This document shows, piece by piece, positions 1 through 57,069 of a stretch of DNA of 64,000 nt. The stretch lies in contig RWJK01001113.1 of assembly GCA_004335835.1 (NCBI GenBank), forward strand, positions 56,886-120,885. Direction: 5' to 3'. Under the pieces are notes generated by a model, which saw nothing but the letters and a program-made list of their open reading frames with translations, made no database searches and was not told where the DNA came from. The DNA comes from Scenedesmus sp. ARA3 (Eukaryota > Chlorophyta > Chlorophyceae > Sphaeropleales > Scenedesmaceae). The position numbers were made by a program, and so were the translations under genes. Positions within the stretch are counted from its first letter, which is position 1. Each line of letters starts with the position of its first letter.

Positions 1-108
1 CTCCCTTTCGCAGACATCTTGGGCCTCATCTCACCTCCAGAGGTGTCTACATCTAGATAACCTGCAAGTGCTGGTGCTCTCCGGCCTAGGTCTGACTGGC
101 AACTTTCT
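1..108 (+). repeat. Partial exon echo of the LRR exon
   Basis: A diverged direct copy of about 246-323, from the cgctgacata/gacatc stretch through the 'ggtctgactggcaact' core. It lies in the preceding intron and carries an in-frame stop, so it is not translatable as LRR. Confidence 0.75.
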
Positions 109-2571
109 GTGCACATGCAGGTCCCAACACCCCTCCGCGCTTCTGCCGCGTATGGGCCGGTATCTCCTGCGATGCAAGCTACCGCGTCAGCGGCCTCAAT
201 CTCACCGCCTTGGGCCTAGACGGCCAGTTATCATCACTCACTTTCGCTGACATAACGGGCCTCATCTCACCTCTAGACAACCTGCAAGTGCTAGTGCTCT
301 CCGGCCTCGGTCTGACTGGCAACCTAAGTGACGCCACTGGAACAGGCCTCGATGCGTTTCCCAAGCTGCAGCACTTGGACATCAGCAAGAGCTCAGCAAT
401 AGTGGGGCAGCTGCCAGATCGCTGGGCCGGGCTGATTGATTTGAGGGTGCTGCAAGTGTCGGGCAGCGGCATCGGCGGCACGTTGCCTGGCAGCTTTGCG
501 TCACTGCAGCAGCTGCGGGAGCTGCACGCGGCCGATTGCAAAGGGCTGACAGGATCACTGCCAGTGGAGTTCGGGTGAGTGCAATGATGCAGCAGGCCTG
601 GTGCAGGCTGTCAAAGATTTGGAGATTCGCACCTGCCACACAGACATGTGCTGGAGGTTTGCCCAGGGCTGACAGGGATGCTGCCAGTGGAGTTCGGGTG
701 AGTTAGGGTTTAGGGTTGAAGCAGAGGGCGTTGCCTGGCAGCTTTGCTTCACTGCAGCAGCTGCGGGAGCTGCGGGCGGCGGCTTGCCCAGGGCTGACAG
801 GGACGCTGCCAGTCGAGTTCGGGTGAGTTAGGGTTTAGGGTTTAGGCAGAGGGCGTTGCCTGGCAGCTTTGCTTCGCTGCAGCAGCTGCGGGAGCTAAGG
901 GCGGCTGATTGCAGAGGGCTGACAGGGACGCTGCCAGTGGAGTACGGGTGAGTTGTGGGTGCAATGGTACGCGTTAGGCTGCAGCATGTAGCTGTAGGTG
1001 GGTCCAGGTAGGGGGTGTGGAGCCCAGGGGCGCCGCCCTGGCCGCACACACCCTCTCTCCAGCCTTAACTTACCCAGGCGCTGCAGAGCGGCCTGGGTGG
1101 CCACTCACTCACTCACTGGTAGGTGATAGGAGTCAGCTGACAGGGACGCTGCCAGTAGTACGGGTGAGCTGCTGAGAGAGACTTTGCAGGTTGCATGTTG
1201 TGAGCGCAGGCGCACGCGTAAGGCTGCAGCTTGTTGTCAATGTAGCTGTAGGCGGGTGATTGGTGTGGGCTGACAGGGACGCAGCCAGTCGAATTCGGGT
1301 GAGTGCAATGGCAGATACTTTGCAGGTTACTTGTTGTTGTGAGCGCAGGCGTACGCGTACGGCTGCAGCATGTATAGTGGTAGCTGTAGGCGGGTGATTG
1401 GTGTGGGCTGACAGGGACGCTGCCAGTGGAGCACGGGTGAGCTGCTGACAGCTGTCAGAGACTTTGCAGGTTACATGTGTGAGCGCAGGCGTACGCGTAA
1501 GGCTGCAGCATGTAGCTGTAGGCGGGTGATTGGTGTCGGCTGACAGGGCCCTTGACAGTCAAGTTCAGGTGGGTGCAATGATGCCGCAGGCCTAATTACA
1601 GGCCATCAAAGGTTAAAGGTTTGTACCTGCCACATTCGCATGTGCTGCTTAAACGTGTGGTGATGGAGGTGCAGGGCACTGCGCCTGCAACTCTTGTCTC
1701 TGCTGCAGTTGGCAGTGCACGGTGGCTGTGTTGCCGTTGCATGCAGATCGCAATCGGGCAGCCGGCAACATGCAGCGGAGTTGAACGTATTGTGCAACAA
1801 GTAGAACCGCGGCGCATATGTGGGTCAAAGCACGGGTGTACTGTGCCAAAACACACGCATCTGCTGCCATCGCTGCATGCGCATGGCCTGTTTGCAGGAT
1901 GCTCACAAACCTGGAAGTGCTAGAAATCACAGGCAGCGGCATCACCGGCACCCTGCCTCCAGAGTATGCCGACCCGACGGCCGTGAAAGCAGTCCGCGCA
2001 CGCAGCATTGCTGCTGCTGCAAAGGCTGCCGTCGCTCAGAGAGAGGCACAACAGGCACTCGATGACTCAGCGGTGATGATCGGGGCCGTGCAACCAGTTG
2101 CAGCAGCAGCAGCAGCAGCAGCAGACACTGGCAAGATGCATTCCAAGCTCAGCCGCAGAAGCAGTGTCAGCATGCTACTAGGAAGCATCCGCACAGCACA
2201 CACCCCGACTCGCCAGCATCGGCAGGCAGCAGCACAGCGAGCAGTGGCAGCACTGAGCAGCAGTCCTGCTGATGCACTGGGCCTGACAAAGTTGCAGAGG
2301 CTGCTGCTGAGCGGCAACGCGTTGCAGGGCCAGCTGCCTGCCAGTTATGCCAAACTGAAGCAACTCCAGGGGCGCTGTGCAGCCAGCCAGTTCCGACCTC
2401 ATCAATTGAAGTTTGTATGACATACAACACCCGATGCGTCATGTTGTGAGAACTCACGAGTGCGCTTGGCATTTTGAAGTTGGAACTAATGTACAGTGAC
2501 TCAAGTGTTGCTTTGCACATGTGCACGTCTTGGTGTGTGCATGCAGACCAGCAAACTCAGCCAGCAGTGCT

Positions 2572-2617
<46 letters not shown>

Positions 2618-3492
2618 GCCGCTGGTGCTGCTGCTGCTGCTGCTGCTGCCGCTGTCACTGCTGCAGGTTATCGATGTTTCCGACAACATGCTGACAGGCT
2701 CACTGCCCACTTTTTACGCCACACTGACGCGCTTGACAGTCCTGCGGCTCGGCCGCAACCGGCTTCAAGGCCAGCTGCCTGGCCCCTGTGTCAGCTTGAG
2801 GCAGCTGGCAGTGCTTGATGTCAGCAGCAACCAACTCACAGATGATACGTGAACTGAACTTGATCCGTTTGCTGTGCATGCTTTGAAACTCTGCAAACTC
2901 CATGTTAACAGGTGCATGCAGCATGCAGTGCAAGCCACACAGTGACTTCTGCAGCGCCTCAATTGCAGCTGCACTGCACCGCAGCTGCGTAGTATACTGA
3001 GTCAAGATGGGATGTTACTGCTGGTGCAGCTGGATCTGCTGCCATGCACTATGCGTCCATGAACGCCGTGCATAGACATGGGGCTCCAGCAGAGCTGCAA
3101 ACGTCTATTTCACAGATGTGCATGTGCAATGCGCGACGAGAACAATCCCGAATGCACAAGTCATCATGCTAGAAGAGTTGACCCTGCAGCTGCTTACAAC
3201 GTGTATCATCTGAATGGCAACCCCAATGCTTTTGTTGCATTTTGTTCCAAGTTATGTGGCTCACTTCTCAGGCACTGTATTCCTGCTGTGGGCATTTTTT
3301 GCAGGCTCGGTACCGGTCAACTGGGATTTCCTGGCAAGACCAGACTTCAAGCTGCAGTGCCTGCTGCTGCAGGGCAATGTCAACGAGCTCATCAGCGCTG
3401 AAACGAAGGCGGATTTTGAGGCCAATTCACGGAAGAGGATGCCGCCGTTGGGCCTTGCTATCAATGATGCTGGTGACCCTCTCTGCGTGTGA
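1..3492 (+). CDS. Extracellular-type leucine-rich-repeat protein, 5' end outside the window
   Basis: Coding exons can be joined at 121-574, 1898-2369, 2667-2841 and 3305-3492 (stop TGA at 3490). The first exon encodes a plant-type LRR N-terminal cap (CRVWAGISCD) followed by repeats of the L..L.L..N.LtG.lP kind, such as LTGSLPVEF, ITGTLPPEYA and NMLTGSLP. The second exon holds a ~110-residue Ala/Ser-rich insert between two LRR stretches. Such LRRs normally sit outside the cell, in receptor-like or cell-wall proteins, but no signal peptide or membrane segment is in the window. The phase-correct ends of the second and third exons are not followed by GT (they read gggcgc and atgata). The gene is therefore either decaying, wrongly sequenced there, or spliced unusually. 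The LRR family call is firm; a specific role cannot be given. Confidence 0.7.
660..1572 (+). repeat. Array of seven echoes of an LRR exon 3' end
   Basis: Seven diverged copies of the exon end 'ctgacagggacgctgccagt', most followed by a gtgag-like donor, lie near 669, 790, 918, 1137, 1270, 1408 and 1540. The first copies include about 90 bp of the exon. The later ones have been amplified together with intron sequence into units of about 130 bp. All are direct repeats within the single intron 575-1897. Confidence 0.85.
2574..2660 (+). repeat. (CTG)n tract before an LRR exon acceptor
   Basis: Near-pure CTG triplets interrupted by a few CCG/GTG units run into the acceptor ctgcag. Here they serve as the pyrimidine-rich 3' part of an intron, a use seen repeatedly in this window. 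Confidence 0.8.
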
Positions 3493-4753: not shown

Positions 4754-7076
4754 TCAAGCGTGAGCTGCCTGAGCTGCTGGTGCTGCCTGAGCTGCGGGAC
4801 CCGCCTGAGCTGCCTGCTGCTGCTGCTGCTGCTGTTCCTGTTGTGCCTGGATCATCTGCCTCCGCGCCGCGCGGGCCGCAAGCTCAGCAACCGCCGCCTG
4901 ACGCATCTCCTCAACCATTCGCCGCCGCTCCGCCAGCAGCGCAGTGCGCTCCCTGCCCTCGTCCTCCCGCCCCTGCAACCGCTTCAGCAGCTTGTTGCCC
5001 AGCTGCACCGCCTTCCTGCACTCCGCCTTCTTGCCATTCTCACCCCCCACAGACGGGGCGCCCCGCTCACTGGCCAGCGCTGCCTCCACTGCTGGCTGGA
5101 TGTTGGGGATTGCTTGCAGCAGCGCCAAATTTGCTGCGTGCTGCTTGGTGAGCTTGAGCAGCGCGCGCACCGCCTCCATGCGCGCCAGCCTGCAGGAGTC
5201 CTGCAGCAGTGTGGCCAGGCCTGCCAGCACACCCTGCAGCAGCAGCATGACAAGCAGGCAGATTCACTAGTGAGGCAAGAGCTTGGACGCACGGCCTGCC
5301 ATGCTGCCTAAGCACCATTTTCAGCCTGCAGGAGTCCTGCAGCAGCGCGGCCAAGCCTGCCAGCACGCCCTGCAGCAGCAGCATCATGTGTCAGTGACAC
5401 ACAGGCATGTTACATTGGCATGTCAAAGCACGACATGCGCGCCAGCTTGCAGGAGTCCTGCAGCAACGCTGCCAGGCACTCACATGCAGGTCACATGCTG
5501 GTAGTCTGCATTGCATAGGCATGCGAACGCACCTATGAGACCATGCACAAGATGCTGGCAGTTACGCCTGGTGTCACACTCATCTGATCCTTGCTGGCAG
5601 TACATCGTAAGACCACAGCAGCTGCACCTGTGCGGCCCCAAGCCTTGTCTGGTGCTCAGTGAGGTTGCCCAGGCATGTGGCTGCTGCGCGGCGCATGGCC
5701 ACCTCCTCATGGTACAGCAGCACCGTGATGTGCGGCAATGCGTTGGGGGCCTCTACAATGCCAGCCTGCAGGATCAGCAACAGCAGCAGTATGTATGAAA
5801 ATCTTTTTTCTAGCGGGGCCAGTGCCTGGCTGGAAGGCTTGCAGGAGTACTGTTCAAGCAGGACAAGCACCTCCAAGCTACAGCTTGCTGGCTGGCTGCT
5901 GCAAGCGTTGTGTTGCGTTCCACACGTGCTTGCATACAATTGTATGCATTTGCCTCACCTGCTGCTCCTTCTGCATGACGCCTGAGCGCACCGCCAGCAC
6001 CTGCAGCGCCTGCAGCCGGCGCGCCTCATAGCTGCCATCAGCAGCCCCAGGCCCCAGCAGGGCCAGCAGCTCAGCTGTCTTCATTTGCTTGTCGATCTTA
6101 GGCTGCTTTGAAGCTGGCGGGGTGGGCTTGGCGTAGCAGCCTGCACGTCCCAGCATGCTGCGGGCTGCTGCTCTGGGCGCTGGCATGTGTGGAGGGGGGT
6201 GCGGGGGGCCTGCAAGTACAGTATGGACATGCATTTGAGTGCAGAGTTTCCTGCAAGCACCGCATGTAGAGGGATCTGGGTGCAGCGGTCCTGCAAGCAC
6301 GCAAGTACAGGGTTTGGGTGCGGGGCTGTTGCAAGCACGGCACGCACAGGGCTTTGGTTTCTTCTGCATGTCTTTTGCCGGGGTGCACGTTGCTGGGACT
6401 TGGTGCAGCAGGCAGCTGGTGTGGCGTCCTGCGGCGCACTGCGCTGGCAGCTGCATCCAACCAACCCAATTGCATGGCACATATAGAGCTATGTGCACGT
6501 TTCCTGCAAGCATTTGCAACACAGCTTGCCGGCTGTCACCTGCTTTGGTGGATGATTCTGCGCGGTTGCTGTTGGTGCGCTGCCGCTTGGCTGCTGGGTC
6601 AACCAGGCGCAGCTCCTCTGTGAGGGAGTCAACCATGCTGCGCAGTGAGGCCAGCAGCTCAACATCCCTGTAGCCCTCAGCAGCGCCCCTGCAGGAACCG
6701 TGAGCAAGGTGCATGCAAACAGTGGGCAAATCAAAAGCAGCAGAAAGGTTTGTATCCCAGTGGTACTGCTGCTGCCTTGTTGATGTCAGCATGCTCTGCC
6801 GTGGCATCGCAGCAGTACTACAGTAGCAGTATTTCAGCAGCAGGCATGCGATACTGTTTCAGTGTTTCATGTATCAGCAGTCTTATCCATGGCAAGCCAC
6901 GAACAGCTGCTGCCTCAATTGGACTGCTGATACACCTGGCAGAAGACAGCAGCTACAGCTCTTCTGCTGGTCCACCCTAACGACGCAGCAGCACATTCGC
7001 ACCTATTGAGCTCCGCCTCTAAGTTATCCCTCGCGTTTTGTGAACTGCATCGGAGCTCGTGTGCGTTCATCAACAT
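4754..7076 (-). CDS. Armadillo-like repeat / coiled-coil protein, 340 aa
   Basis: Five exons join in phase: 7076-7003, 6688-6540, 6140-5959, 5765-5628 and 5233-4754. The N-terminal ~75 residues look helical and include a basic patch KRQR that could be a nuclear signal. The middle (about residues 137-235) carries ARM/HEAT-like helices: the AMRRAAATCLGNLTEH stretch is a typical ARM helix 2-3, and GVLAGLATLLQDSCRLARME follows. The C-terminus (about residues 240-340) is an Arg/Glu/Ala-rich coiled coil ending in poly-Q and a QAAPA-type repeat. ARM proteins are protein-binding scaffolds; no partner can be named. ATG at 7076 has a second in-frame ATG at 7070. The alternative, that these exons are the tail of the upstream BTB gene, is disfavoured because that gene has its own stop at 8089. 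Confidence 0.65.
5325..5475 (-). repeat. Two 5' echoes of the last ARM exon
   Basis: Two diverged copies of the acceptor-proximal part of the exon starting at 5233 (core 'caggagtcctgcagca' on the plus strand), at about 5325-5385 and 5440-5475, inside the intron just upstream of that exon. Confidence 0.75.
6190..6360. repeat. Degenerate minisatellite in an ARM-gene intron
   Basis: Imperfect units of roughly 35-45 bp share the core 'cctgcaagcac' followed by 'gggtgcggg' or 'gggtgcagcgg'. They lie entirely within the intron 6539-6141. Confidence 0.55.
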
Positions 7077-8088
7077 TGCTGCAGACGCTTTTGGCGGGAC
7101 GACTGCAGAAGCTAGCAAGCGGTCTCCGTTTCAGCTAATTCACGCGGTCTTCTGCTCAATAAAAACTTCTTGCCAAATTGGTTTACAGAATGTCTGTTGA
7201 GCACCTGCTCGAAGACGAGCCGTTTGGACAGGTGGCACATAAACCCGCCCTCGATCAGCAGATGCCAGGCATTGCCTATGTCGCGTCTTGTGTGAGACCG
7301 CGGAAGAATCAACATCCTTTGGGCATTACATGGCATGCACAGCGCAGCCTGTAGGGACATACAGCAGAAGCCACAGGATGTTAGGCTGGCTTGTACAGGT
7401 GGTACAACAGCCAGTTGGCGGGTGCCCTTAACACACACTGTGCAAGGTGGCACCCACATGAACCAAGCATTTGATAACTACACAACGCTGCTCGGCACCA
7501 CTGTACAGGCCGAACCAACATTGCACATGCAAAGGACACAAGGGCATGCAGGCGTACAGCAAGTGGTGTGCGGTCATCGCCGGCACCTGAACAACAGAGC
7601 TGCATGCATGAGCCTCCTGTCCAAACATTTCATCTTGAACATCATCTGCCACCTGACATGCACTGCACGACTGCATATGAAAGTACACTCACTATGCCCA
7701 GCGCCACAGCAGCAATCGGAGGATGCCTCCAGAGCAGTCAGTGCAGGTATACAGTCCGGCACCCTGAATGCTGTTCCAGACCAGCACTTGAGCCACACAC
7801 AACAGTGCCAGGATGCAGCCACCCCAGCCGTTGCTACTCGCACTGGTCGATGCTGCAGCGCAGGTGGATCTTGCCGTCATAGAAAAACTGCCGCAGCGCC
7901 TGCTCGCTGTCCCAGTCTGTGATCCTCAGGAAGTTCCTGAAGCCCCAGCCCGCAGTGCCGCACACAAAGCCGCTCTCCATGCCGATCCCAAGTCACCACA
8001 GGTGGATATTGCCACAGCTTCGCGCTGACCAATGCTGCAGGGCAGGCACAGCTGTGCTGCTGCGCAGGCGGGTCTTGATGCAGCACGC
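7077..8088. other. Spacer between BTB and ARM genes
   Basis: Downstream of the BTB stop and upstream of the ARM start, both on the minus strand. Apart from the echo at 7834-7979 no coding sequence is supported. The ARM promoter should lie at its low-coordinate end; no clear TATA element was identified. Confidence 0.4.
7834..7979 (-). repeat. Downstream echo of the BTB terminal exon, with its own stop
   Basis: A copy of the last ~145 bp of the BTB coding region (MESGFVCGTAGWGF... to CSIDQCE), 110 bp beyond the true stop. It reads QFFYDGKIHLRCSIDQCE and then TAG where the gene has RFFYDGK... and TGA. The frame is intact, so a read-through or alternative terminal exon cannot be excluded, but no acceptor precedes it. 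Confidence 0.8.
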
Positions 8089-11000
8089 TCACTCGCACTG
8101 GTCAATGCTGCAGCGCAGGTGAATCTTGCCGTCATAGAAGAACCGCCGCAGAGCCTGCTCACTGTCCCAGTCTGTGATCCTCAGGAAGTTCCTGAAGCCC
8201 CAGCCCGCAGTGCCGCACACAAAGCCGCTCTCCATGCGGTTCACAAAAGAGAAGTCCCCGGACACCACCTCGCGCGCTGCCAGCTGGCCTCGGAAGTAGA
8301 GCACGTCGGGCAGGTGCGTGGCGCTGCCGATCTGCAGGAGCAATGCAAAGCAACGCAAGACAGTAGATGTCAGCAGGCAGAGGCAGTGATAAGGATCGGC
8401 ACGCTGGCCTCGGAGGTAGAGCACGTCCGGCAGGTGCGTGGCGCTGCCGATCTGCAGTAGATGTTGCAGCAAAAGGAAGCCAAGAATGGGACAAGGTGGT
8501 CAGCAGGTTAGCAGATTGAAAAATGGGGGAAGACTACCAAGAACAGACCAGGCAGAAGTGCGACGACAAATCAGCGCGCTGCACAGCAAAATGTTGAAGG
8601 TTATGTGTCCAACTTGTGAGCGTGCTGTGGCCAGCCCCTCGACACTCCTAAACTCCTGCAAGATGATTGCGATTGTGCAGCTGCCTGCAGCTGCAGGAGA
8701 CTTGTTTTCGGCATCATCTGGCCTGGGCCCTCCCGGCAGTCGTACAACCATCAAGCGCATGTCATCCTTGCTGCGCACTCACCGCAATGCGTGCCGTGGT
8801 GCCCACAAAGACATCGATGCTGGAGGCTGACGCAGCAGCAGCTGCGCTGTTGGCCTGCGGCTTTGCCGGAGGCTCCAGCACCTGCAGCGGCAGCAGCAGC
8901 AGTGCATTGAATTAAATCTTGTGAAGCACAAACACAAACACAAACCACTGAAGAGATAAGGGCTATATCAACAAGGAATTGCAGGCCCCTGCTGAGTCCA
9001 CCTCAGACGGCAGTATAATAAGGGGTGTGAACAGCACAGCGGGCACCTGCGAAGCCGTGCATGCACATGCCGCAAGCGCTGGAAATCTAGTACAGGACAA
9101 TACACCAGCAACAGCAGCAGCAGCAGCAGCAGCATCAGCACCAGCGCACCTGCAGCACCAGCTGCCACTGGAAGCCGTTGAAGTAGTGCGGCTCCGAGTA
9201 GCGGTCCACTGTCACCTTGCTGGCCCTGCAAAAGCAACAAAGACACAAGCAGCGGCAGCAAGCATATTCATAGCAAGCGAATGAGCTGTGGTGAGGTATT
9301 GCGGCTGAGAGTAGCGGTTCATAGTCACTTTGCCAGCCCTGCACCGCACAAGCATCATCAACAACATGCCCCACCTGACTGCGCGATCATGGCCTTGACA
9401 GCAGCCGGCTCCGGCACCCACTCGACGGCAACCACCCCCATCAACACCATATCATTGAAACATAAAATTTGTGCGCCCGTACCTGAACTGTGCAATCATG
9501 GCCTTGACAGCAGCCAGCTCAGCACCCACTCAAACTGCAGCCTGTCTGTAAGCAACTACCTTCAACCAAACAACCTCAAACCAGATGTACTTGTCTTTAC
9601 CTGAACTGCGCGATCATGGCCTTCACTGCAGCCAGCTCCAGATCCCACTCAAACTGCTGCCTGTATGTGAACCCACCCCCAATACAAACATACCAAAACA
9701 TATCAAAATGTATGATTCCTACCTGAACTGTGCAATCATGGCCTTCACTGCAGCCAGCTCCAGCACCCACTCAAACTGCAGCCGGGTGACAGCGCTGCGC
9801 GCACGCGGCGCAGCATACAGCACCTGCAACGCAGGCAGCAGCAGCCGCGGCAGCAGCAGGAGGTCAACACGCTTGCAGGACAGCGCTGGTCAGCACGTGC
9901 GCAGGATGCACCCCATCTGCAAGCTTGCAGGACAAGCGAATCCATGATGTCGCATGCTTGGAGGAGCACCGCAGATATTCAAGATTATGTTGCTAGCTGC
10001 AGGGCTAAACACAGCAGCATACAATGACACCTTCTGCACGGCTCGCACCTTCATCCATAGCAAGCGTCTGGACATGCTGTGCCTGCTGTGCAGGCAACAG
10101 TGCTACTGCTGGCTGCCTTTAATCTTCTACATCCTAAGCAGCATCATAGTAATACTCTTGTACTGCCCGCACCTTCATGCGCGGGAATCGGCTGGGCATG
10201 CTGTGCATGCTGTGCATGCTATGCATGCTATGCAGGCCACAGTGCTACTGCTGGCTGCCAACTACTCTGAACCCACAGCAGCATGACATAGCAGCTCTGC
10301 ACAGCCCACACCTTCATCCGTAAGAAGGGCTGGGCATGCTGTGCGTGCTGTGTATGCAAGAATGTGAGTGCTAGATGCCGAATTTTAACTACACCAGCAC
10401 GAACCGCACCTTCATGCGCGGGAAGCGGCTGGGCATGCTGTGCAGGCCACAGTGCTACTGTTGGCTGCCATGTAAACTTATTCCAAAGCAGCATAATAAT
10501 AATACTCTTGTACTGCCCACACCTTCATGCGCGGGAAGCGGCTGGGCATGCTGTGCAGCTTGTTGCGCGTGGCCTCGTTGGCGGCGGCGTAGCGCGCTGC
10601 GGCAGCAGCAGCAGCAGCAGCAGCAGACCAGAGCAGGCAGGCAGCGCCAAAGTTGTCATGTGTTGCCTTAACACAGGCTGGCCACTGCTGCATGGCTAGC
10701 AGTGAATGCCAGTCCGGTTGCTGACAGCGTGGCGTGCAAGCGCTTACATATCAAGACAAGACGTTGTCTAGTTGATATTCAAGCCAATCAGCTGCTGCCC
10801 ACCTGCTGCCATCAGCGCCTCTGCTGTTGCAACATTGGCCATGACTGGCAGTCGCTTCACCTCTGAACTCCGCAAAGTGTCAAAGCCCAGCACAGTCACA
10901 GAGAAGCAGCTCTCTATACGCGCACCTGCAGCCATCAGCGCCTCTGTTGTTGCCACATTGGCCATGACCGGCAGCCGCTTCAGTACACTCCCAAGGAAGG

Positions 11001-42208: not shown

Positions 42209-42238
42209 TATCATTGTAAAAACACACTCAGCTAATGC

Positions 42239-43003
42239 TTAAATGACCAGCTGCGAGTGCTCCACCAGCGGCTGCGCCATGCTGCTGCTCTGGAACTGCC
42301 GCCGCCGGCTGATGCGCCCTGCGCGCCGCTTCTGCTCCGCTGCCAGGTAAAACCACGTCTTCAGGTTGAAGTGGATCAGCGCAATGTCTGCGGGGCCAAA
42401 CACGTCTCCCGATTCTGGAACAGCGCACTTGACTGACACATCAGCGCCTGCTGCTATGAGGAGCTCGCATGCCTCTTTGTGGCCGGCTTGTGCTGCGAGG
42501 TAGAGGGGTGTCACGCCGCATACGGTGTGCTGCGACTGGTTGGGGAGGTCGATGCGGCTGTTGACGTCTTCGCCGTCGGCGATTGCGCTGCGCAGGGTTT
42601 GGATGTCACCTGGGAAGCAAGGGCGGTGTACATCAAGGATGGACAGCAGTAGCAGGGCAGGAGAGTGTCAGGGAGCAACAAGGGGAGGCGCATGGGCCAT
42701 GTCAGCAAGTGCAAGAGTTGCCTGCTGCTGGAAGAGGAAAATTGATGGAGCTAGTTTGATTTGTTTGTTTGCAGCATGAAGGAGGACTGCTCGGCCTTTG
42801 CTGCTCAGAGTGCGTGGCTGTCAGTGGCGGGGTGGCATCCCGCGCAAAAGCTGGTCCGTCCACCACCTGCTGATCGACCAAGAGGCTATCGCAAACTCTT
42901 AATAGACGCACAAAAAATTAATATTTGCTCTTTGAAGCCTGCCAGCGCTGCTCCTGCTGGGTGGAGCCCCACATCCCCTCTGCTCACCTTCATAGGCAGC
43001 CAT
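42239..43003 (-). CDS. Small ankyrin-repeat protein, 128 aa
   Basis: Two exons, 43003-42988 (16 nt, MAAYE plus one base) and 42609-42239, join in phase to give MAAYEGDIQTLRSAIADGED. One full ankyrin repeat is clear: GVTPLYLAAQAGHKEACELLIAAGADV. A degenerate unit precedes it and an Arg-rich tail follows (EQKRRAGRISRRR). Ankyrin repeats bind other proteins; no partner is suggested by context. The tiny first exon was chosen because its donor (gtgagc) and the acceptor (ttcccag) are canonical and it completes a typical ankyrin start. The exact N-terminus is less sure than the repeat. Confidence 0.65.
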
Positions 43004-45189: not shown

Positions 45190-45912
45190 TCAGCTGTCGC
45201 TGTGTAGGCGCATGACGGCCCCTGAGAATACCACCATGAGGGATGCCACGAGCGTAACAGCCAGCACTGCAGGCAGCACCTTGCTGTCATATGGCCCGTC
45301 CAGCTTCAGCCTGCAGGACAAAGAAAAAAGGCGGGAAACATAGTGATGTGTCAAATGGATTGCATGTGGAAGCACTGCAGGCAGCACCTGGCTGTCATAT
45401 GGCCCATCCAGTTTCAGCCTGCAGGATGAAATTGAATTTGCACAGGCAGGAAAGGGCGGCAAAAGTGGCGGAGAGCAGGCAGGCGTGGCGGCGTCAGTAG
45501 TCAGCTCAGCAGCACCTTGCTGTCATTTTGCCCGTCCAGCTCAAGCCAGCAGGGAAATTAAAAAGAGACACAGCAGCAGGAGTGCAGTGTGAGCACGTTG
45601 GCCCTGTGTTTCCCGGTTATGCGCTTTGAGCACGCCTAGCACAAAATTGGAAACGAGGGTTTGTCTGGAACCACTCAAATCAGCACCTGCTGCACCCTGC
45701 TGCACCTGCACATAGTTCAAGCACCTTACGCCACAGCTGCCTCATGCACTGCCACTCACGTGAGCATGTTGGCGCGGTTGTTGAAGTTGTATCCGCCCCA
45801 CACCGCGATCATGATGCTGGTGGCAAGCATGAACATGGACAGCACGCGCACGTACAGCGCTGACGAGGTGTAGTCGTCACCCCAGCTGTGGTGCGCGTGG
45901 CCAGCCACACCT

Positions 45913-45951
<39 letters not shown>

Positions 45952-48034: not shown

Positions 48035-50337
48035 ATGAAGTTCGGCAAGTATCTTGAGAAGCAGGCCAAGGAGGACTGGCGCTCCTTCTACCTTGACTAC
48101 AAGGGGCTCAAAGACCTCATCAAGGAGTCCGCAAAGGAGGCAGAGACACAAGGGCCCGCTGCATTCAGCCCGCGCACAACCAGCCTGAGCATTGTGCGCG
48201 CAGCAAAGACAGCGGATGCGGCCGAGGAGCGCTTCTTCCAGAAGCTGGAGGCAGAGGTAGGTGCAGCATGTGCAGCTTGAGGGTTTGAGGTTTTTGCGTG
48301 GGGTGGCAGTTTGGGGTTACGCGAGTCAAAGGCAGCGGATGCGGCTGAGGAGAGGTTCTTCCAGAAGCTGCAGGCAGAGGTGGGTTGGGGTCGTGCTGTG
48401 CTTAGGTATGCTTTGTGATGCTTTTAAGCCGAGGTACAAGGGCATTCGCTGCACAAGAGCAAGTCTAGCAAACGCTGGACGCAGAGGTTTGTGGAATTTC
48501 TTTGACTAACGCGCACAGGCGTGTATTCACCCCGCGCACCACCAGCCTGAGCATTGTCCGCGCAGCAAAGATAGCCGGTGGCAGGTGGATGTTTCCTTTT
48601 TCCAGATTCCAAAGCTGGTGGCACGGCGGTATACCACAAACCTGATTGAAAGCCGGAGCTCAGTGTTGCATGCAAGTTGTTTTGGATCCGCAGAAGTGCT
48701 GGAAGTGATGGTGACCGACACTTGCCGCACAAGTTGCACCCAGCTGCTGCTCGTCATGCTGCGCATGCTGGTTGTGCATGTCCGCAGCTTGCGCTGGTGC
48801 TGTTACTGCTGCGCTGCTGGTTCTGCTGCTACCGCTGCTGCTACTGCTGCTGGTGCTGCAGTTGGAGAAAGCCACAAGGTTTTTGCAGCGAGTGGTGGCT
48901 GAGCTGGGCCAGTGCCTGGCCCACCTGCCACCAGCAAGCAACACCCCTGCTGCTGCTGCTGTTTTTTTATTGCAACGCAGGTTGAGAAGGTTGGCAAGTT
49001 CACGCAGCGTGTCGTTGCGGAGCCGTAACCAGCCAGTAACTCGTAAAACCTCTGCTGCTGCTGCTGCTGTTTGTAATTCACCACAGGTTGAGAAGGTGGG
49101 CAAGTTCACGCAGCGCGTGGTGGCAGAGCTGCGCCAGCGCCTGGCCAACCTGCAGCCTAAGGCTGACAAGGCGGCAGCAGCAGCGGGCGCCACAGATGAG
49201 AAGGAGCGGCTCATGGAGGTGCGGGTGCTCCGGGGTTTAAGCATTCGCTTTGTCATATTCACATGCCTCAACGCCTCATGTGGTGCACTCAGTCTTGAAA
49301 GTGGTGCAAGGGTGTGGGAGCAGCAGCCAGCAACAGCGGCATGTGTGATGATGCTGCAAACGTGGTATATGCAGCTGCCCCGTGACTGTGTGTGTGACGC
49401 ACTGTTACTGTCAAATGCACTACGTGTACTGCTGAACCTGCTGCAACTGCCCATCTGCCGTCTTTGAACTACTACCCGAAACCCTTCGTCTTACTGCTGC
49501 AGGAGGCCAAGCTGATTGGTGAGGACTACCTGCAGCTGGAGAAGTACGCCAACCTCAACTACATGGTGAGCGGGATTTGTCATTTTGTCATGTAACATGT
49601 TATGTGACATGTGACATGTGCATACCGTCACATGCATGGCGATTACCTCAATCAGGCAGCATTACAATGCATGCATGTTGCACTACCCAACTACTGCACT
49701 AGCTGCCTTGCTTAGACTGTTCCAACACTGAACCCCGCTGTAACACTGTTACATACAAAACCCTAAACCCTGCAGGGTGTGCACAAGATCCTCAAGAAGC
49801 ACGACAAGCTGCTGCCGCACAGCCCCTGCCGCCAGTTCTACATCGCACACCTGCACCAGCAGCCATGGGTGCAGGGCACCTACAGTGATGTGCTGGTGCA
49901 CCTGAGCAACTGCTACAGCCAGCTGAGGGGTGACCAGGCAGGGCAGAAGAACGAGGACGCATCACAGGTGGGGTTCAGCAGGTTTTAAGGCAGAGGGTTT
50001 AGGGTTTGGGGGGTGTGCCGGTCGGGGCACCTACAGTGATGTGCTAGTGCACCGAAGCAACTGCTACAGCCAGCTGCGCGGCGACCAGGCAGGGCAGAAG
50101 GACGAGGACGCGTCACAGGTGGGGTTCAGCAGGGTTTGGGGTTTGCGGTTTTGGCGCCGAGTGCCGTGGAACTTGCAGCATGTCCTGCTCATGCCTCGGC
50201 TGTGTTGTGCACATGGCGTCCTGCTCTTGCTGCTGGACTGGATTGCTCTGGTCATGCCTGTCAACCTGCTACTTGCTACTTGCTACCTGAAGCACCGCGT
50301 GCTGGAGCAAACTGCCCAAACATCAAACAAATGCGTA

Positions 50338-50369
<32 letters not shown>

Positions 50370-51086
50370 AACCCTATTGCTGCTGCAGGGTTTTGTGCGC
50401 TCCACCACCAAGTACTGGGTGCGTGCCGAGGATGTCAGTAACGTGAAGTACCACGTGCTGCAGCAGCTGCCCGTGTTCCAGTTTGACAAGCACGACTTTT
50501 CGGGAGATGCGCAGCTGATCAACAGCGTGTACTTTGACAACGAAAATCTGGAGCTGTACCACGGCAGGCTGGACAAGAAGCCCAACGCGATCGCACTGCG
50601 CATCAGGTGGGTTTTAGGGGTTTAGCCGGCTAAGGGTTTTGAGGTTGAAGGTTTCAAGGGCGTTGAGCAGATCAACAGCGTGTACTTTGACAACGAGAAC
50701 CTGGAGCTGTACCACGGCAGGCTGGACAAGAAGCCCAACGCGATTGCGCTGCGCATCAGGTGGGTTTTAGGGGTTTAGCCGGCTAAGGGTTTTGAGGTTG
50801 GAAGGTTTCAAGGGCGTTGAGCAGATCAACAGCGTGTTAGTTTGACAACGAGAACCTGGAGCTGTAAAACGGCAGGCTGGACAAAAAACCAAATGTGATT
50901 GCGCTGCGCATCAGGTGCGGGGTTGCTGCAGTACTGAAGGATGTTTGTGATGGTGGATTGAAGATGGTCTGGGGTGGAGAATGATGCTGTGTGGTCACTG
51001 GGTTTCGCACTGTGGGGACGCTAAGGAACAGCCGCTTTGGTTTGCCGCCTGCGTTCTTCACCTGCTGATTGCTGAGCTCACTAGTG

Positions 51087-51132
<46 letters not shown>

Positions 51133-54100
51133 TGGTACGGCCCTGGTGAGCCGAAGAAGGTCTTCATTGAGCGCAAGACGCACAGGGAGAGCTGGAAGGT
51201 GAGGGTTTGAAAGAGTTAGCAATGGCTGCGGCAGGGTTTGGGGTTCATGCACTTGACACCCTCTATCACGCATGGCACGATGTGTTCTGCAGCAGTCAGC
51301 TTGCGCATGCATCCGCCACTACTGGCCAGCAACAGCTACTGCAAGCTAGTGCAGCATGTTGTCCATGGAACCCTATGCACCTTTTGTGCTTTTTTTTGAC
51401 ATCACTGAAATTCGTGCTCTCATGAACCCCTGCTGCATCGCGAGGAGAGTGTGAAGGAGTGCTTCACCCTTGAGGAGGACAACGTGGTGTCTCCCAAAGT
51501 GTACACAAAAGCTCGTAAAACTTTTGCCACTGACAGCTAATGCCTGCGCTGCTGAACCCTGCGCTGCATAACCTCAAACCCTGCAGGGTGAGGAGAGTGT
51601 GAAAGAGCGCTTCACGCTGGATGAGGACAAGGTGGTGCCCTTCCTGGAGATGGAGTACGGCCTGGAGCAGGTGCGGGGTTTTGGCAGTGACAGCAAGGGT
51701 TTAGCCATCATCAGGTTGGCGGTAGGGTTCAAAACTGTGGGTTCCTCTATTGCCGCCAGCTGGAGTGTGGACTGTTGATGCCTCCCGCGGAGTGCTGGCG
51801 CTGCTGCTGTTGGATCTGCAGTATTGAGCGCAGTGTAATTTGCTGAGCTGTCGCTGAATCCAGTGCTGCTGCCGCTGCTGCTGCTGCCGCAGGCTGTGGC
51901 CGACCTGCGTGCTGCGGGCAAGTCTGAGAAGGAGATTGAGAACTTCTCCACGCTGTTCACGGAAGTGCGGCAGCAGATCGACTCCAAGCAGCTGCGGCCC
52001 TTCATCCGCACGCAGTACATGCGCACCGCATTCCAGGTGAGGGGTTTGACTGGGCTTAGGGTTGAGAGCAGCTAGGGTTCAAAGATTCGAAGTTTAGGGC
52101 TGGGATGTTCAGTGCACCGCATTCCAGGTGAGGGGTCGGGGTTGAGGAGCCAATGTGGTTTGATACTTGAGCAACCTAAGGCATCGATGTGGAGTGGGCA
52201 GAAGCTGCAGCAGCAGAAAAGTACATGCGCACCGCCTTCCAGGTGAGGGTGACAGGGCTTAGGGTTGAGAGCAGCGAGGGTTCAGAGATACGAAGTTCAG
52301 GGCTGGGATGTTCATTCTAAAGTTGCTTGTGTGAGTGCGGAGCCATGTTGAGGGAGTACTCTTGGCATACTTGTGTGTCTTGTCAGCATTATATCCTACC
52401 CTTAGAACATGAAAGACGTCAATTGCAAAGCTGTGTTGTCACTGCTGAACCCTTTCAACCCCTGCTGCTGCTGCAGATCCCCTTTGACTCCACGGTGCGC
52501 ATCTCCATGGACACCAACCTGTGCATGATCAAGGAGAACCCGGATGAGGGGCCCAGCTGCACACTGGCGGGCCGCTGGTACAGGTGCGGCTGTTACTTTT
52601 TCTGTCATTACTGTCATTTGTGTGCAGGCATTAGATGCCGGGCGTGCTGTGGTTCAAATGGTTCACACCAACGCCCGCTGTGGCCTGAGGCGCAAGTGGG
52701 TGGTGTTAGCACTCACTTCACTTGGTGCCGCTGCCAATGCTGCACTCCCAAAAGATGCATTGAAACTTGCTAAAACCCTGCTTTAAACCCTGCCCAAAAC
52801 CCCTGCAGGGACCCGAGCCTGCCCATCAACCGCAACGAGATCACTCGCTTCCCCCACGCGGTGCTGGAGGTGAAGCTGTCACTGGGCCAGGGCCAGGAGA
52901 GCCCCGCATGGGTGCAGGTGGGTGCAGGGTTTAGGGTTTAGTGCAGCATTCCTCTAGGGTTCAGGATTGAAGGCAGCAGTTACTTGGGGTGTAAGGCAGC
53001 CTCAGGTGGGGTGGCGCTGGAGGTGAAGCTGTCACTGGGCCAGGCCCAGGAGAGCCCCGCCTGGGTGCAGGTGGGTGCAGGGCTACAGTTACTTGAGGGT
53101 TCTGAGGCAGCCTCGGGTGCAGCTAGTCGGTTGACGCACTGCGCATCTGCAGCAGCAGCTTGCAGGCATCAGACAGCAGGGACTGCAGCTACTGCAGTGG
53201 GGATGATCTGATGAAGGCATCTCTGAGATGGATGTGCTTGCATCAGCTGGCTGTGTTGTTTGCTTCGACTAAAATGTGATATTTAACGTGTGTTATTTTG
53301 TCATGTAACGCAGGAGCTGCTGGAGTCTGGCTACCTCACCGAGGTGCACAAGTTCTCCAAGTTCATCCACGGCAGCTGCACGCTCACCCCTGAGCTGGTG
53401 CAGGTGGGGTTTAACATAGCTGGCGGCTGCAGGGTTTTGGGCGCTGCATCAGCAGTTGCTGTGTGGGCCAGCATCTTGAGACTGCACTGTGCTAGCAAAT
53501 ACTTGATTAAATTTTGTCAAGATGGTCTGTCATAATCAGAGTTGAGTATCAGGCTGGCATCTGTCTTCTACGTCAGCTGTTGCATCCGTCCCTCAAGACT
53601 TGCATACGCAACATGTTACTATGTTACTTTTCGTTGCATTCCGCAGGCTGTGCCCTACTGGGTTGATGACGAGAGCGTGCGCCCCAGCATGCTGCTGTCA
53701 GCGCCAGCAGTGCGCCCCGCAGATGCAGCAGCGGCCAGCAGCAGCGCAGCAGCAGGCAATGGGCAGCATGTGTCAGTGGAGGTGCAGGAGGAGGTGAGGC
53801 GGCGGCTGAGGGTTTAGGGTGCAGGGTTTGGGGTTTTAGGTGAATGCTGCATTTGGTGCTTGCAGTGCATTGCTGGCAGCATGTGTCGGTGGAGGTGCAG
53901 GAGGAGGTGAGGCGGTGGCTGAGGGTTCAGCATCCAGAAACTAGGGTTTACGTCGGGTTCAATTGGTGCTTGCTGCATTGCCAGAGTCACTTTGTGGGTG
54001 GCTGTGTTCTCAATACAGCAGTGCTTACGGTGCGAGCCGCAGGCTACATCTTCACAGCAATGCCATCAGCGCTGCGCCTCGGCAAAAGACTGCAGCACCA

Positions 54101-54833
54101 GCCATGGTATGCATGTTGTGATTCACAGCATACAATTCAGTCTTGGTCTGGCCTGCAGGAAATCTAAGTCGGCGTCCGACTGAGACATCCTGCAGGCAAG
54201 GTGTATACTGAATTGTATACTGGGAAGCATGACGTGCATCTTGTGGAAGCATCTGGTGTGGTGCAGCCAGCCAAGGCATCCTTTGCAAATGAAATCAGAA
54301 CAGATTGCTGCTGCATGCCTTGAAATCTGCTGCACTGCACTGTTGAAGTAATGGTTTTCACATGCAGTGCGCAGCAGATGCCATACCATCTGCCCAAGAT
54401 CTTCCGCCAACAAATTGTCGGTATTGCACACCATGCAGCTGACATCTCATGCGGCCTCAACAAGCCTTTCAAGCGCATCCTCCTCATGGCCGTCCGGGCA
54501 TACTCTTTTTAGCGTGCCCCATCAACTGCGTCGCACAACGCCACTTGACATTTTGTGTGAATCGTGTCATTTCCTGTAGCTGACGTCCCCTGTGGCTGTC
54601 GACAAGCCCCGCAAGCGCACCCCTGGCCTGGAGGACCTGAGCCACCCACTGCTGGGCGACCAGCCAACTCTGAGGCTGCTGCCAGACCCCTCAAAGGTGA
54701 TGTTTCAAGAATGTGATGTTTGCAGCAGGTTGTGGATTGATTGCTGATCCCTGGTTTGCTGCTATCTGCCGTGGACTAGTCTGCATGAGCCAGTGGAACT
54801 GCAGTTTCAATGTCTGGCATGTTGAGCGCTGGC

Positions 54834-54868
<35 letters not shown>

Positions 54869-56866
54869 GCAGATCAAGGGCTTTGCCAAGTCGCTGCGTG
54901 GTGACGGCGATGCGCCTGGCTTCTGGATGAAGCTGCTGGGGCCCAAGGGGCCGCCCCCTGTGAGGCAGCCGGTGAGCAAACACTTGTTGTGCTTCATTTT
55001 TGTATGGTTGGGCATCCCATGTTTGTTGGCATCAGAACATGCTGCGTGCTGCTATCAGGTTCAGTGATTGCATGCCTTGTCAGTGGTTGGAAGTTGCTTG
55101 ATAACAGCATGAAAGGTTCTGGGATGCAGGCGGGCTTTGTATGAAGCTGCTGGGTCAAAGGGGGCGCCCCCTGTAAGGCAGCCGGTGAATGGGTCGATGT
55201 GTTGCATGTTTGGTTGTCTGCACTGCTGCTGCATTTTGTTCTCGACGGCGTAGCTCACATGTTTGCATGTCTGAACCCTAAACTTTCATACCCAGATTGG
55301 GCCAACCCTAAACCTGGACCACATGTTTGCATGTCTACCCCCTTATCTTGAATCTTCTATTTAAACCCTGCAGGGCACCACCATGATGCGCATCGAGCCC
55401 AAGACCTTCTTCGCCAACCCTAAACCTGGGCCACATGTTTGCATGTCTAAACCCTTTTCTTGAACCTTCTATTCATACCCTGCAGGGCACCACCATGATG
55501 TGCATCAAGCCCAAGACCTTCTTTGCCAACATTGCAGCTGCACCACATGGGTGCATGCCTAAACCTAACCCCCCAATTCGTTTGTTCTAACCCTGCAGGG
55601 TACCACCATGATGCGCATCGAGCCCAAGACATTCTTTGCCAACGAGCGCACCTTCCTCAGCTGGCTGCACATGGCAGTCACACTGGGATCCATTGCAGCT
55701 GCCCTGCTGGGCTTCAGCAACACCAAGGGCCAGGTGGGTGTTATATTGTTATGTTATATTGTTACTTTTGTGTTATTCCTTAGCAGCAGCAGCAGCTGTA
55801 GCAGTGTCAGCTGGCTGCACATGGCAGTGACGCTGGGCTCCATCGCAGCGGCACCGCTGGGCTCCAGCAACACCAAGGGCCAGGTGGGTGTTATATTGTT
55901 ATGTCATGTTGGCACTTTTGTGTTAATTTGGAGCAGCGGCAGCTGTAGCAGTGTGATGAGAACTGCAATGTTGGGCCTGTGTATGATTGTTGGCAGGTTG
56001 ACAACCTGCACTTGCTTTCGCATGCATAACACAATTCCTGCTGTTCAACTAAAACCTGAATCCGCCCGTGACATTCTAAACCCTCGTGCAGACGGGCCTG
56101 TTTGTTCACCTGGTGGAGATCATCAAGCTCATCCTGCTGCCCGTGGCCATCAGCATGTGCGGCTATGCCTGCATGCTTCACCAGATACTCCGTCAAACCC
56201 CAAAACCGTATGCCTGCAAGTCCTAAACCCTGTTTCGCTTCTTGAACCCTGCAGACGGGCCTGTCTGCTCACCTGGTGGAGATCATCGCGCTGATCCTGC
56301 TGCCGGTGGCCATCAGCATGTGCGGCTACGCCATCTTCATCTTCAAGTGGCGCTCTGACATGATCGCCAAGAAGCGGGTGGGTTGTCTTTTGTAACACGT
56401 TGCAGCATGCGCCCAAACAGCATGCAATGATCTGTTTGATGCAAGCAACACTCGACGCGCACCGGTGCAGCAACGCATGCAGCAGCACCAGCCTGCAATT
56501 GCACAGCACGCGTGCCAATAACATCCGCACGACACATGTTACTCACTGCGCCTGTCTCCCCGCCGCTACTGCTGCTGCTGCTGCTGCTGTTGCTACCTGC
56601 AGCCGCAGCACTTCGACGACCGCGTGGGCCCCCTGGGCCTGTGTGCAGCCGTTGTCACTGCCCTGGTGGCCATCCTCATTGTGAGCTTCATTGACTTCAT
56701 CGATTTCCTGGAGTCCACTAAACCATCGCCAGACCCTACGCCAAGCCCTGGCCCAGGCCCTACACCCTCGCCGGCACTGCTGATGCCAAACCCCGCCGGT
56801 GGGGTTCAGCGGCTGGTGGAGCTGGCGGCAGGGCTTACCAAGCCGTCGCTGGTTCAGTCCAGCTGA
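48035..56866 (+). CDS. VTC4: VTC4, SPX-domain polyphosphate polymerase, 770 aa
   Basis: Seventeen exons join in phase: 48035-48256, 49087-49218, 49503-49565, 49776-49967, 50389-50606, 51132-51198, 51587-51670, 51893-52036, 52477-52583, 52809-52917, 53314-53403, 53647-53793, 54580-54696, 54873-54971, 55599-55733, 56255-56377 and 56603-56866. Residues 1-~165 form an SPX domain (MKFGKYLEKQ; GVHKILKKHDK), the inositol-pyrophosphate sensor. Residues ~205-520 are the tunnel-shaped polymerase core. Its conserved sites are LRIRW (Arg276), IERKTH (Lys291), LEVKL (Glu430) and KFSKF (Lys459/Lys462). A linker leads to a VTC1-like three-helix domain (RIEPKTFFANERTFLSWLHM onward, ~602-705) and a Pro-rich tail. 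The enzyme polymerises ATP gamma-phosphate into polyphosphate. Its length is close to yeast Vtc4 and no key motif is missing. Confidence 0.95.
48320..48565 (+). repeat. Two echoes of VTC4 exon 1
   Basis: At about 48323-48378 a copy of the exon end with donor (KAADAAEERFFQKLQAE). At about 48519-48572 a copy of the exon's inner part (PRTTSLSIVRAAK). Confidence 0.9.
48855..49025 (+). repeat. Two 5' echoes of VTC4 exon 2
   Basis: Copies with acceptor at about 48858-48935 (LEKATRFLQRVVAELGQCLAHL) and 48979-49022 (VEKVGKFTQRVVAE), upstream of exon 49087. Confidence 0.9.
50020..50132 (+). repeat. 3' echo of VTC4 exon 4
   Basis: A ~90-bp copy of the exon end (GTYSDVLVHRSNCYSQLRGD...) with donor and the following intron start. 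It retains an open frame. Confidence 0.9.
50665..50920 (+). repeat. Two 3' echoes of VTC4 exon 5
   Basis: Copies of INSVYFDNENLELYHGRLDKKPNAIALRIR with donor at about 50668-50762 and 50822-50914. The second carries a frameshift and a stop (ctgtaaaac). Confidence 0.92.
51435..51512 (+). repeat. 5' echo of VTC4 exon 7
   Basis: A ~60-bp copy coding EESVKECFTLEEDNVV (real exon EESVKERFTLDEDKVV), upstream of exon 51587; its acceptor AG is lost. Confidence 0.88.
52108..52250 (+). repeat. Two short 3' echoes of VTC4 exon 8
   Basis: About 20-25 bp copies of the exon end (MRTAFQ) with gtgagg donors near 52131 and 52247, downstream of the exon ending at 52036. Confidence 0.85.
53005..53085 (+). repeat. 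3' echo of VTC4 exon 10
   Basis: Copy of LEVKLSLGQAQESPAWVQ with donor, 100 bp downstream of the real exon end at 52917. It duplicates the catalytic-site strand. Confidence 0.92.
53870..53935 (+). repeat. 3' echo of VTC4 exon 12
   Basis: Copy of QHVSVEVQEE with gtgagg donor, downstream of the real exon end at 53793. Confidence 0.88.
54437..54490 (+). repeat. Diverged 5' echo of VTC4 exon 13
   Basis: 'ctgacatctcatgcggcctc' followed by aacaagcct...aagcgcatcc aligns to the start of exon 54580 (ctgacgtcccctgtggctgtc...aagcgcaccc) at roughly 75% identity by eye. Confidence 0.65.
55125..55195 (+). repeat. 3' echo of VTC4 exon 14
   Basis: Copy of the exon end (GFxMKLLGxKGxPPVRQP region) with donor, frameshifted, downstream of exon end 54971. 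Confidence 0.88.
55370..55535 (+). repeat. Two 5' echoes of VTC4 exon 15
   Basis: Copies of the acceptor plus GTTMMRIEPKTFFAN at 55375-55420 and GTTMMCIKPKTFFAN at 55487-55532, upstream of the real exon at 55599. Confidence 0.92.
55808..55885 (+). repeat. 3' echo of VTC4 exon 15
   Basis: Copy of SWLHMAVTLGSIAAAPLGSSNTKGQ with donor, downstream of exon end 55733. This exon thus has both classes of echo. Confidence 0.92.
56088..56172 (+). repeat. 5' echo of VTC4 exon 16
   Basis: Copy with acceptor of TGLFVHLVEIIKLILLPVAI (real exon TGLSAHLVEIIALILLPVAI), upstream of exon 56255. Confidence 0.92.
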
Positions 56867-56924
56867 GCGAGGTTTCAGCTGTGGTCGGCTAGGGGTTTGG
56901 GTTTTCAGCTGTAAGTTGTGCTGG

Positions 56925-56998
56925 GGTTTAGCGGCTGGTGGAGCTGGCGGCAGGTCTGACTGAGCCTGCACCCATGGCTCAGGCCAGCTGAGCTGAGC
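56925..56998 (+). repeat. Echo of the VTC4 coding 3' end beyond the stop
   Basis: Copy of the RLVELAAGLT... to QSS/QAS-stop segment, about 65 bp downstream of the real stop, with its own in-frame TGA. Confidence 0.88.
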
Positions 56999-57069
56999 TG
57001 AGTTCATCTGAATGTGGGTCGAGGGTTTAGCCTTGGATGGTCAGGCTTATCAAGGTCTTTCTTTTGAGC

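Follow-up and report, generated by a model that had tools for sequence, protein, structure and literature searches.

Known systems of local duplication and intron gain

A single tandem duplication across an intron-exon boundary has made a new intron in the potato RdRp case (PMC4974935). Small tandem duplications also have a documented source in the fill-in and joining of staggered breaks (PMC8355091), and introners, which are dispersed elements, reportedly add to intron sequence genome-wide (PMC9860276).

Here we describe exon echoes, truncated direct copies of exons lying next to the exon itself, in a window (the whole stretch of DNA analysed) of 64,000 nucleotides from the green alga Scenedesmus sp. 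ARA3. As in the potato RdRp case, the duplication crosses an intron-exon boundary, one copy is partly intronic and splice signals are inherited, and the statement in the first-pass annotation that no named process has this signature thus gives way to a published one, tandem genomic duplication across such a boundary (PMC4974935). Unlike in that case, the outer sites of the alga appear to be still in use, existing introns appear to grow, no case of a new intron having been established, and the event recurs many times within one gene. The echoes share with staggered-break duplications that they are local, direct and short, but those are sized by break spacing (PMC8355091), and the algal unit is about 121 bp long with only one clear junction match. 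Like introners (PMC9860276) they contribute intron sequence on a large scale, yet as local copies of the host gene: when 3.8 kb of the VTC gene was compared with the rest of the genome, the matches were short and confined to its low-complexity parts, and the dispersed similar copies by which introners are recognised were not seen.

Repeat census and cluster classes

Self-comparison of the window gave 101 direct self-matches, all at most 4 kb and 70 of them at most 300 bp apart, versus 14 inverted ones, of which one spanned at most 4 kb. At a more sensitive setting, with spacing up to 1.5 kb, 104 direct pairs stood against 0 inverted pairs and close repeat pairs covered 17.7% of the window. These counts confirm the echoes as direct local copies and led us to reject a chance origin; an origin driven by the telomere motif was also rejected, that motif being dense at 40-60 kb only. 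The pairs group into 48 clusters, which by eye comprise 20 acceptor-side, 14 donor-side and 3 stop-codon cases and 1 copied whole short exon, with 3 coding LRR repeats, 5 clusters without a visible exon and 2 unclear ones remaining. By this reading 38 of the 48 clusters, or 38 of the 43 classified ones, span an exon edge. Some 60 partial exon copies are present if arrays are counted, which bears out the annotated figure of more than 50, and the smallest period per cluster has a median of 121 bp with quartiles of 104 and 140 bp (108 clusters).

Acceptor-side echoes on the minus strand are found in clusters 6 (8283..8460), 7 (9179..9343), 13 (12254..12434), 14 (12815..12963, whose exon holds a predicted start codon), 16 (16540..16934), 17 (17802..18037), 31 (45263..45564, two echoes) and, less certainly, 32 (45861..46029), and in cluster 4 (5177..5477), which has an extra copy of the inner exon part. 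Acceptor-side arrays on that strand form clusters 15 (13271..13888, five copies, the nearest about 101 bp apart), 18 (18799..19126) and 20 (20816..21276, four copies), and clusters 25 (31607..31828), 26 (36410..36602) and 27 (37766..38015) are acceptor-side echoes on the plus strand. On the donor side there are minus-strand arrays in clusters 9 (10010..10558), 12 (11932..12249) and 19 (20414..20806), a minus-strand echo in cluster 10 (10797..10982), a plus-strand array in the LRR gene (cluster 2, 481..1580) and plus-strand echoes in cluster 28 (38077..38493). Cluster 8 (9370..9783, minus) is the copied whole short exon. On the minus strand, cluster 5 (7836..8246) echoes a last exon including its stop codon, and cluster 30 (42001..42288) holds three copies of the ankyrin gene's last exon with stop codon.

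The echoes had been assigned to eight unrelated genes, two of which, VTC1 and VTC4, are a single SPX-VTC-DUF202 gene with the same layout in Raphidocelis P0061. The LRR and ankyrin names find support in Pfam, whose cut-off was passed by these 2 of the 10 peptides tried and for none of the other gene names.

The VTC gene as a reference

The SPX-VTC-DUF202 gene (48035..56866, plus strand, as are all its clusters) carries 13 clusters, 33 to 45, all of which touch an exon edge; none is confined to an intron. Its exon chain without the echoes is 74% identical to the Volvox VTC protein over its 329 residues, with a sole alignment gap of 6 residues that lies inside an exon and zero gaps at the junctions of the eight exons used, so for this gene the protein is unchanged. 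Nine clusters have exons with strong support from homology, whereas for clusters 34, 41 and 45 the exon is placed by weak homology or an open frame.

Donor-side echoes occur in clusters 33 (48160..48575), 35 (49874..50137, d=151), 36 (50513..50917, two echoes, d=153 and 307), 38 (52014..52314), 39 (52860..53082, with a similar intron part carrying a large indel), 41 (54909..55188) and 43 (55657..55954, d=150, both exon and intron part retained). Cluster 40 (53762..53981) is donor-like, its exon not being fixed by homology. Acceptor-side echoes lie upstream of the exon in cluster 34 (48964..49129) and, as a pair, upstream of the exon at 55599 in cluster 42 (55256..55643), and further ones form clusters 37 (51433..51637, AG lost) and 44 (56087..56332). 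Cluster 45 (56800..56993) lies behind the gene and echoes the last coding exon at its stop-codon end, with the stop codon included. A protein of a relative, P0082, seems to read through the intron of cluster 35, with, by our count, 62 residues and no echo where the window has 421 nt.

Several arrays show what was duplicated. Exon and intron parts were copied together at similar identity in the arrays at 50513, 55301 (first two copies) and 55657; the unit of cluster 36 joins the 3' part of the exon to about 60 bp of intron, and that of cluster 42 (the 55301 array) has at its joint a 6-bp GCCAAC common to intron and exon, the only clear junction match. Among 19 exon-limited pairs, whose match ends near the splice site, intron flanks beat unrelated flanks in 7 (p<0.05), and no significant intron homology was found in the other 12. 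Exon and intron in one unit, together with the tight unit length, support the earlier proposal of repeated tandem duplication across exon edges.

Polarity and occurrence on other contigs

The fixed polarity that had been claimed, with upstream copies keeping the acceptor and 5' part of the exon and downstream copies the 3' part and donor, was obeyed by 12 of 12 VTC clusters with exons set by homology; cluster 40 was omitted because its exon is not fixed. On other contigs, seven loci were picked for their overlapping domain ranges, regardless of side; of the 18 copies there, 16 retain the edge predicted for the side on which they lie, in some cases with a decayed splice site. The two others are third copies, at loci L025 and L028, that lie downstream and hold only the inner exon part without an edge. 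Such inner-part copies are known in the window from clusters 4 and 33, where the second echo of the latter (48522-48575), downstream and without the donor, is likewise an exception to the polarity. No echo was present at an eighth locus, L031. Downstream copies do keep the 3' part as annotated, but the retained edge is not always a donor: three window echoes (clusters 5, 30 and 45) have a stop codon at that edge, as by eye do two elsewhere (C320 and C900), and because such copies exist, a splice site is not required for duplication. A further claim, that echoes shorten and diverge with distance from the exon, fits by eye 6 of 11 sets with several echoes, the other 5 showing no trend.

The polarity needs no special process, because geometry and survival of the reading frame give it. 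When an acceptor is duplicated, the only possible remnant is an acceptor with the 5' part of the exon on the upstream side; when a donor or stop is duplicated, it is the 3' part on the downstream side. Splicing at the inner site would in most cases disrupt the reading frame.

The same contig holds 26 clusters (by count only) in the 42 kb upstream of the window, and a survey of 60 kb across three other contigs gave 0 clusters. The process is thus patchy, and the description of echoes as pervasive needs correcting, since density is very uneven between contigs. This unevenness counts against the explanation that we favour, which leaves it unexplained. So do the 12 exon-limited pairs lacking significant intron homology, the copies of inner exon parts and the 5 sets in which distance has no effect.

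A model of recurrent duplication and intron growth

We think it likely that recurrent short tandem duplications at exon edges, surviving where the reading frame survives, lengthen introns in this alga; this is probably a known mutation type at unusual density, with echoes hidden by splicing. Duplications of mostly about 100-140 bp would arise again and again and be kept if the frame survives. With a unit across an acceptor, the spliceosome would stay with the acceptor beside the full exon, so that the additional copy would form the end of the intron; with one across a donor, the first donor would be used and the extra copy would become the start of the intron; and with one across a stop codon, the extra copy would end up behind the gene. 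Units wholly inside an exon would mostly be lost. Extra copies would decay, fastest in their intron part because there neither copy is constrained and indels are taken up, and old copies would therefore resemble bare truncated exons, with repeated rounds building arrays and lengthening introns. The duplication step may be break repair or slippage. Duplications from paired nicks or staggered breaks are recognised by little or no homology at their junctions and by a size that follows break spacing, and here the 6-bp match of the 55301 array is the one junction read clearly. In plants, paired nicks reportedly yield small tandem duplications (work by Schiml in 2016 is said to show this).

Intron length in the VTC gene agrees with such growth: echo-bearing introns measure 388-903 nt versus 173-281 nt for echo-free ones, and, with the small exon at 53644-53700 taken into the comparison, all 9 of the former exceed all 7 of the latter (p=0.00009). 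Echo spans hold 2,692 of 6,630 intron bp (40%), so the suggestion that this is a main route of intron growth stands for this gene but not, given the three contigs with 0 clusters, for the whole genome. Overall, the interpretation in the first-pass annotation is partly supported.

Alternative explanations

The concentration of clusters at exon edges could also point to a mutational process aimed at them, for instance through breaks at nucleosome borders or transcription-linked R-loops, which we regard as improbable. To the edge share in the window and the 13 of 13 VTC clusters we compared a simulation of uniform duplication with survival, run on gene models from unsupervised gene finding with fixed splice profiles and VTC seed exons; it expects 50-53% with present-day VTC or echo-free genes as template (40-62% when run on older gene models) and 50-65% for introns of about 300 nt or more, for which 38 of 43 is too many. 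The expected share rises to 74% at 220 nt and 84% at 180 nt, near the shortest echo-free VTC introns, and in this model the observed share would fit uniform duplication at about 180 nt, marginally at 220 nt and not at 300 nt. Since most of the excess disappears if ancestral introns were shorter, targeting is rejected as a necessity, and the stop-codon edges argue against it as well, splicing not being needed there. We find slightly less probable still a more elaborate form in which a duplication process of about 120 bp is dedicated to exon edges as its hot spots and the real exons are rewritten time after time, through recombination with diverged alleles, which would make the echoes fossils of earlier exon alleles.

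An assembly artefact, or a partly mosaic assembly, with contig ends of two diverged haplotypes or strains placed side by side and each echo being the exon edge of the other haplotype, is unlikely, if very slightly better placed than edge targeting. It would predict joins where a conserved exon meets a diverged intron, the unit length is near a short-read length, and differences between echo and exon lean synonymous. In the VTC gene 47 of 76 are synonymous versus 36-44% expected, the twelve VTC rows of this count showing homologous protein; cluster 11 (11639..11830, minus strand, an acceptor-side echo) has 7 of 7, in a count whose frames came from older codon scores and are in some cases wrong (clusters 2, 7, 20 and 25 among others). 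In cluster 36, the real exon departs at four synonymous sites from a sequence that its two echoes share, and adjacent neutral DNA has hardly changed, a pattern that also speaks against the reading we favour. The synonymous excess is at odds with freely decaying copies, and tandem duplication leaves it unexplained. Against an artefact, the 38 full-period pairs of head-to-tail direct copies range from 68 to 100% identity, with 29 of 38 at 70-84%; there are arrays of three to five graded copies; stop codons or a frameshift interrupt some of the copies (the far copy of cluster 36 has both); and no second near-identical locus exists for the VTC piece. Moreover, three N gaps are flanked on both sides; at two of these neither flank is duplicated, and the third sits within a tandem repeat. 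Echo-free contigs are similar in codon use and splice signals (older gene models). Contamination by a second alga was rejected on that same likeness. The synonymous excess could also be read as selection retaining echoes as alternative or regulatory exons, but one splice site and some of the exon are missing from most echoes, and several are damaged by stop codons, a frameshift or loss of the AG. The strongest bias (four loci, 41 synonymous differences versus 5 not) comes from loci identified through protein similarity, a criterion that favours conserved codons; we consider such selection very unlikely. RNA-mediated re-insertion of exon fragments, or reverse splicing, would suit the many matches that end near a splice site, but the lack of close inverted copies and, for the VTC gene, of dispersed ones, the intron sequence in less diverged units and the stop-codon echoes, which involve no splice site, make it scarcely credible. 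Recurrent tandem duplication is the reading that we retain.

Significance for intron evolution

Little is known about the origin of intron length, and descriptions of boundary-crossing duplications have so far been of single cases. Tetradesmus obliquus (GC 57%) has a mean intron of 462 bp versus 230-302 bp in the four other algae of the same table (PMC5966456), and one might guess at the same process there. Gene finders will mistake echoes for exons, as ours did in calling several VTC echoes exons. In a genome where 40% of one gene's intron sequence lies in echoes, the rate and unit length of duplication become measurable, and so, directly, does the choice of the spliceosome between near-identical adjacent sites.

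Repeat clusters in the window and its genome

The window has a GC content of 56% and corresponds to bases 56886-120885 of contig 791 in the 87.3-Mb assembly (1567 contigs) that we searched. The genome resembles, in GC content and long introns, that of Tetradesmus obliquus as listed in a published table (PMC5966456), which suggests an alga near Scenedesmaceae. Self-alignment of the window gave 101 direct matches, every one at most 4 kb apart, versus 14 inverted matches with only 1 in that range, and a more sensitive run on pairs within 1.5 kb found 104 direct versus 0 inverted ones, covering 17.7% of the window. The survey of 277,084 sequenced bases in 14 contig pieces (N excluded) contained 108 clusters of nearby direct repeats, including echoes, the partial direct copies of an exon that lie beside it: 48 in the window, 26 in a 42-kb upstream piece of its contig and 34 across twelve other contigs (171 kb). 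No cluster was found in four of these twelve (C200, C300, C500 and C5; 63.85 kb together); three contigs bearing many-exon genes lack clusters in 60 kb. The smallest period per cluster has a median of 121 bp (quartiles 104 and 140), and, independently of annotation, donor-like motifs occur in 19.4% of copies versus 7.8% of random segments and acceptor-like motifs in 39.8% versus 24.6%.

Assigned by eye, the 48 window clusters comprise 20 at acceptors, 14 at donors, 3 at stop codons and 1 whole exon, besides 3 coding repeats, 5 without an exon and 2 unclear cases; a unit can end at a stop codon rather than at a splice site, as in clusters 5, 30 and 45. The same assignment for eight other contigs placed 18 of 34 clusters at exon edges and 5 among coding or satellite repeats, with 11 unclassified.

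The window also holds two sets of tandem arrays, one at 61.1-61.3 kb and one at 62.6-62.8 kb (61104-62772), that read as mutual reverse complements, as in a mobile element, and are flanked on both sides by direct pairs 104-105 bp apart (60856-60994 and 62892-63031). Two neighbouring stretches (23194-26289 and 26803-29341), 72-84% alike over most matching pieces, probably represent a tandem gene duplication with LRR-like coding sequence and would allow the presence of echoes to be compared between paralogues.

The VTC gene as a homology-anchored case

The first-pass annotation listed VTC1 and VTC4 as separate genes, but both parts belong to a single SPX-VTC-DUF202 gene (48035-56866, plus strand): its DUF202 part at 55.3-56.9 kb continues the VTC part, and Raphidocelis protein P0061 has the same layout. 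Named close matches of the protein come from green algae, among them Volvox, Dunaliella and Raphidocelis. Translated together, eight exons give a stop-free chain that shares 74% identity with Volvox protein P0001 across 329 residues, and no exon junction coincides with a gap. Searching the genome with the Volvox protein recovered the VTC echoes independently, with residues 198-279, 226-279 and 247-272 matching consecutively downstream and 135-203 followed by 168-210; at two other VTC loci (contigs 720 and 426), this search gave no overlapping residue ranges.

The polarity originally described, with upstream copies keeping the acceptor and the exon's 5' part and downstream copies the 3' part and donor, holds in this gene for 12 of 12 clusters, among which clusters 34, 41 and 45 involve exons weakly supported by homology. 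Cluster 33 includes an additional copy that consists of an inner exon part and lacks the donor.

Intron lengths in the VTC gene are 388-903 nt where echoes are present (n = 9) versus 173-281 nt where they are absent (n = 7; p = 0.00009), on an exon chain whose boundaries come partly from homology and partly from a gene finder, and echo spans make up 2,692 of 6,630 intron bp. Telomere-like AGGGTT/AACCCT motifs reach 4.1 per kb at 50000-60000, with 1.4 in the preceding 10-kb piece and 0.2-0.7 in the others. TTTAGGG-like runs lie close to VTC donors and CCCTAAA-like runs close to acceptors, so that, judging by these motifs, the intron ends could pair.

Content and age of the duplicated units

Single units span both exon and intron sequence in the less diverged arrays 50513, 55301 and 55657, and at the junction of array 55301 GCCAAC is common to intron and exon. 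Among 19 exon-limited pairs, similarity of the intron flank is significant in 7 (one with a large indel); the flank is often gone. As 29 of 38 full-period matches show 70-84% identity, much of the process is old. Break repair is described as a source of small tandem duplications (PMC8355091); among the publications listed by our literature searches, none describing dense arrays of echoes in algae was seen, which does not prove their absence.

Twelve VTC echo-exon pairs differ at 47 synonymous versus 29 non-synonymous positions (62%, bootstrap 53-72%), whereas a freely decaying echo beside an exon changing only synonymously would give a synonymous share of 36-44% (P = 3e-6 to 0.0015, varying with the transition share). 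In cluster 36, both echoes have four synonymous states in common from which the real exon differs. Recombination with diverged alleles or haplotype stitching in the assembly would be candidate causes. Four loci gave 41 versus 5, though found by protein similarity in a search favouring kept codons; other sets are near balance (e.g., 6 versus 6 in the far copy of kinase locus L029).

Echoes on other contigs

For Helicase_C, all 129 of 129 candidates were scored, and the 125 matches include overlapping neighbours at five loci (C719, C693, C856, C910 and C900) and one staggered pair on C275. For Pkinase (120 of 659 scored), the matches listed include at least two loci with overlapping neighbours and at least one staggered; ABC_tran (19 of 184) gave one locus with overlapping neighbours, and Kinesin (121 of 121) at least three staggered overlaps and no clear echo among the matches listed. 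Of eight of these loci that were examined, seven carry echoes, the staggered kinase locus having none. Here, the polarity was largely borne out: 16 of 18 copies lie on the side expected and retain the edge expected there, while 2, both downstream, keep only an inner part. Given these echoes and the cluster-free contigs, the duplication process is widespread yet patchy.

At L029 (449-889), a kinase exon lies upstream of an echo that remains kinase-like in its changes (HRDLKAAN to HRDVKAGN); a second echo is broken. In contrast to the decayed echoes, a tandem array at locus L013 (6798-7019) consists of 100% identical units, with periods of 81 and 108 reported.

Origin of the polarity

With 3 coding repeats and 2 unclear cases set aside, 38 of 43 window clusters are exon-edge clusters, as are 13 of 13 in the VTC gene. 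In a simulation of uniform duplication, unit lengths followed those observed, copies decayed, the real exon was kept under constraint and clusters were detected by an identical search. Exon-edge shares of detected clusters were 50-53% on echo-free genes and the present-day VTC gene (40-62% in an earlier simulation on older gene models) and depended on intron length, with 65% at 300 nt, 74% at 220 nt and 84% at 180 nt. Under uniform duplication, the window and VTC counts have P = 0.0004 and 0.0035 with 300-nt introns, 0.02 and 0.02 with 220-nt introns, and 0.29 and 0.10 with 180-nt introns. Targeting of exon edges is possible, but not required.

Tandem copying of a segment spanning an acceptor would place the acceptor and exon 5' part upstream, and copying of one spanning a donor or stop would place the exon 3' part downstream; use of the outer site would, as a rule, be the sole way for the protein to survive. 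The polarity is no sign of a special process because this tandem-copy geometry and protein survival via the outer site yield the same sides.
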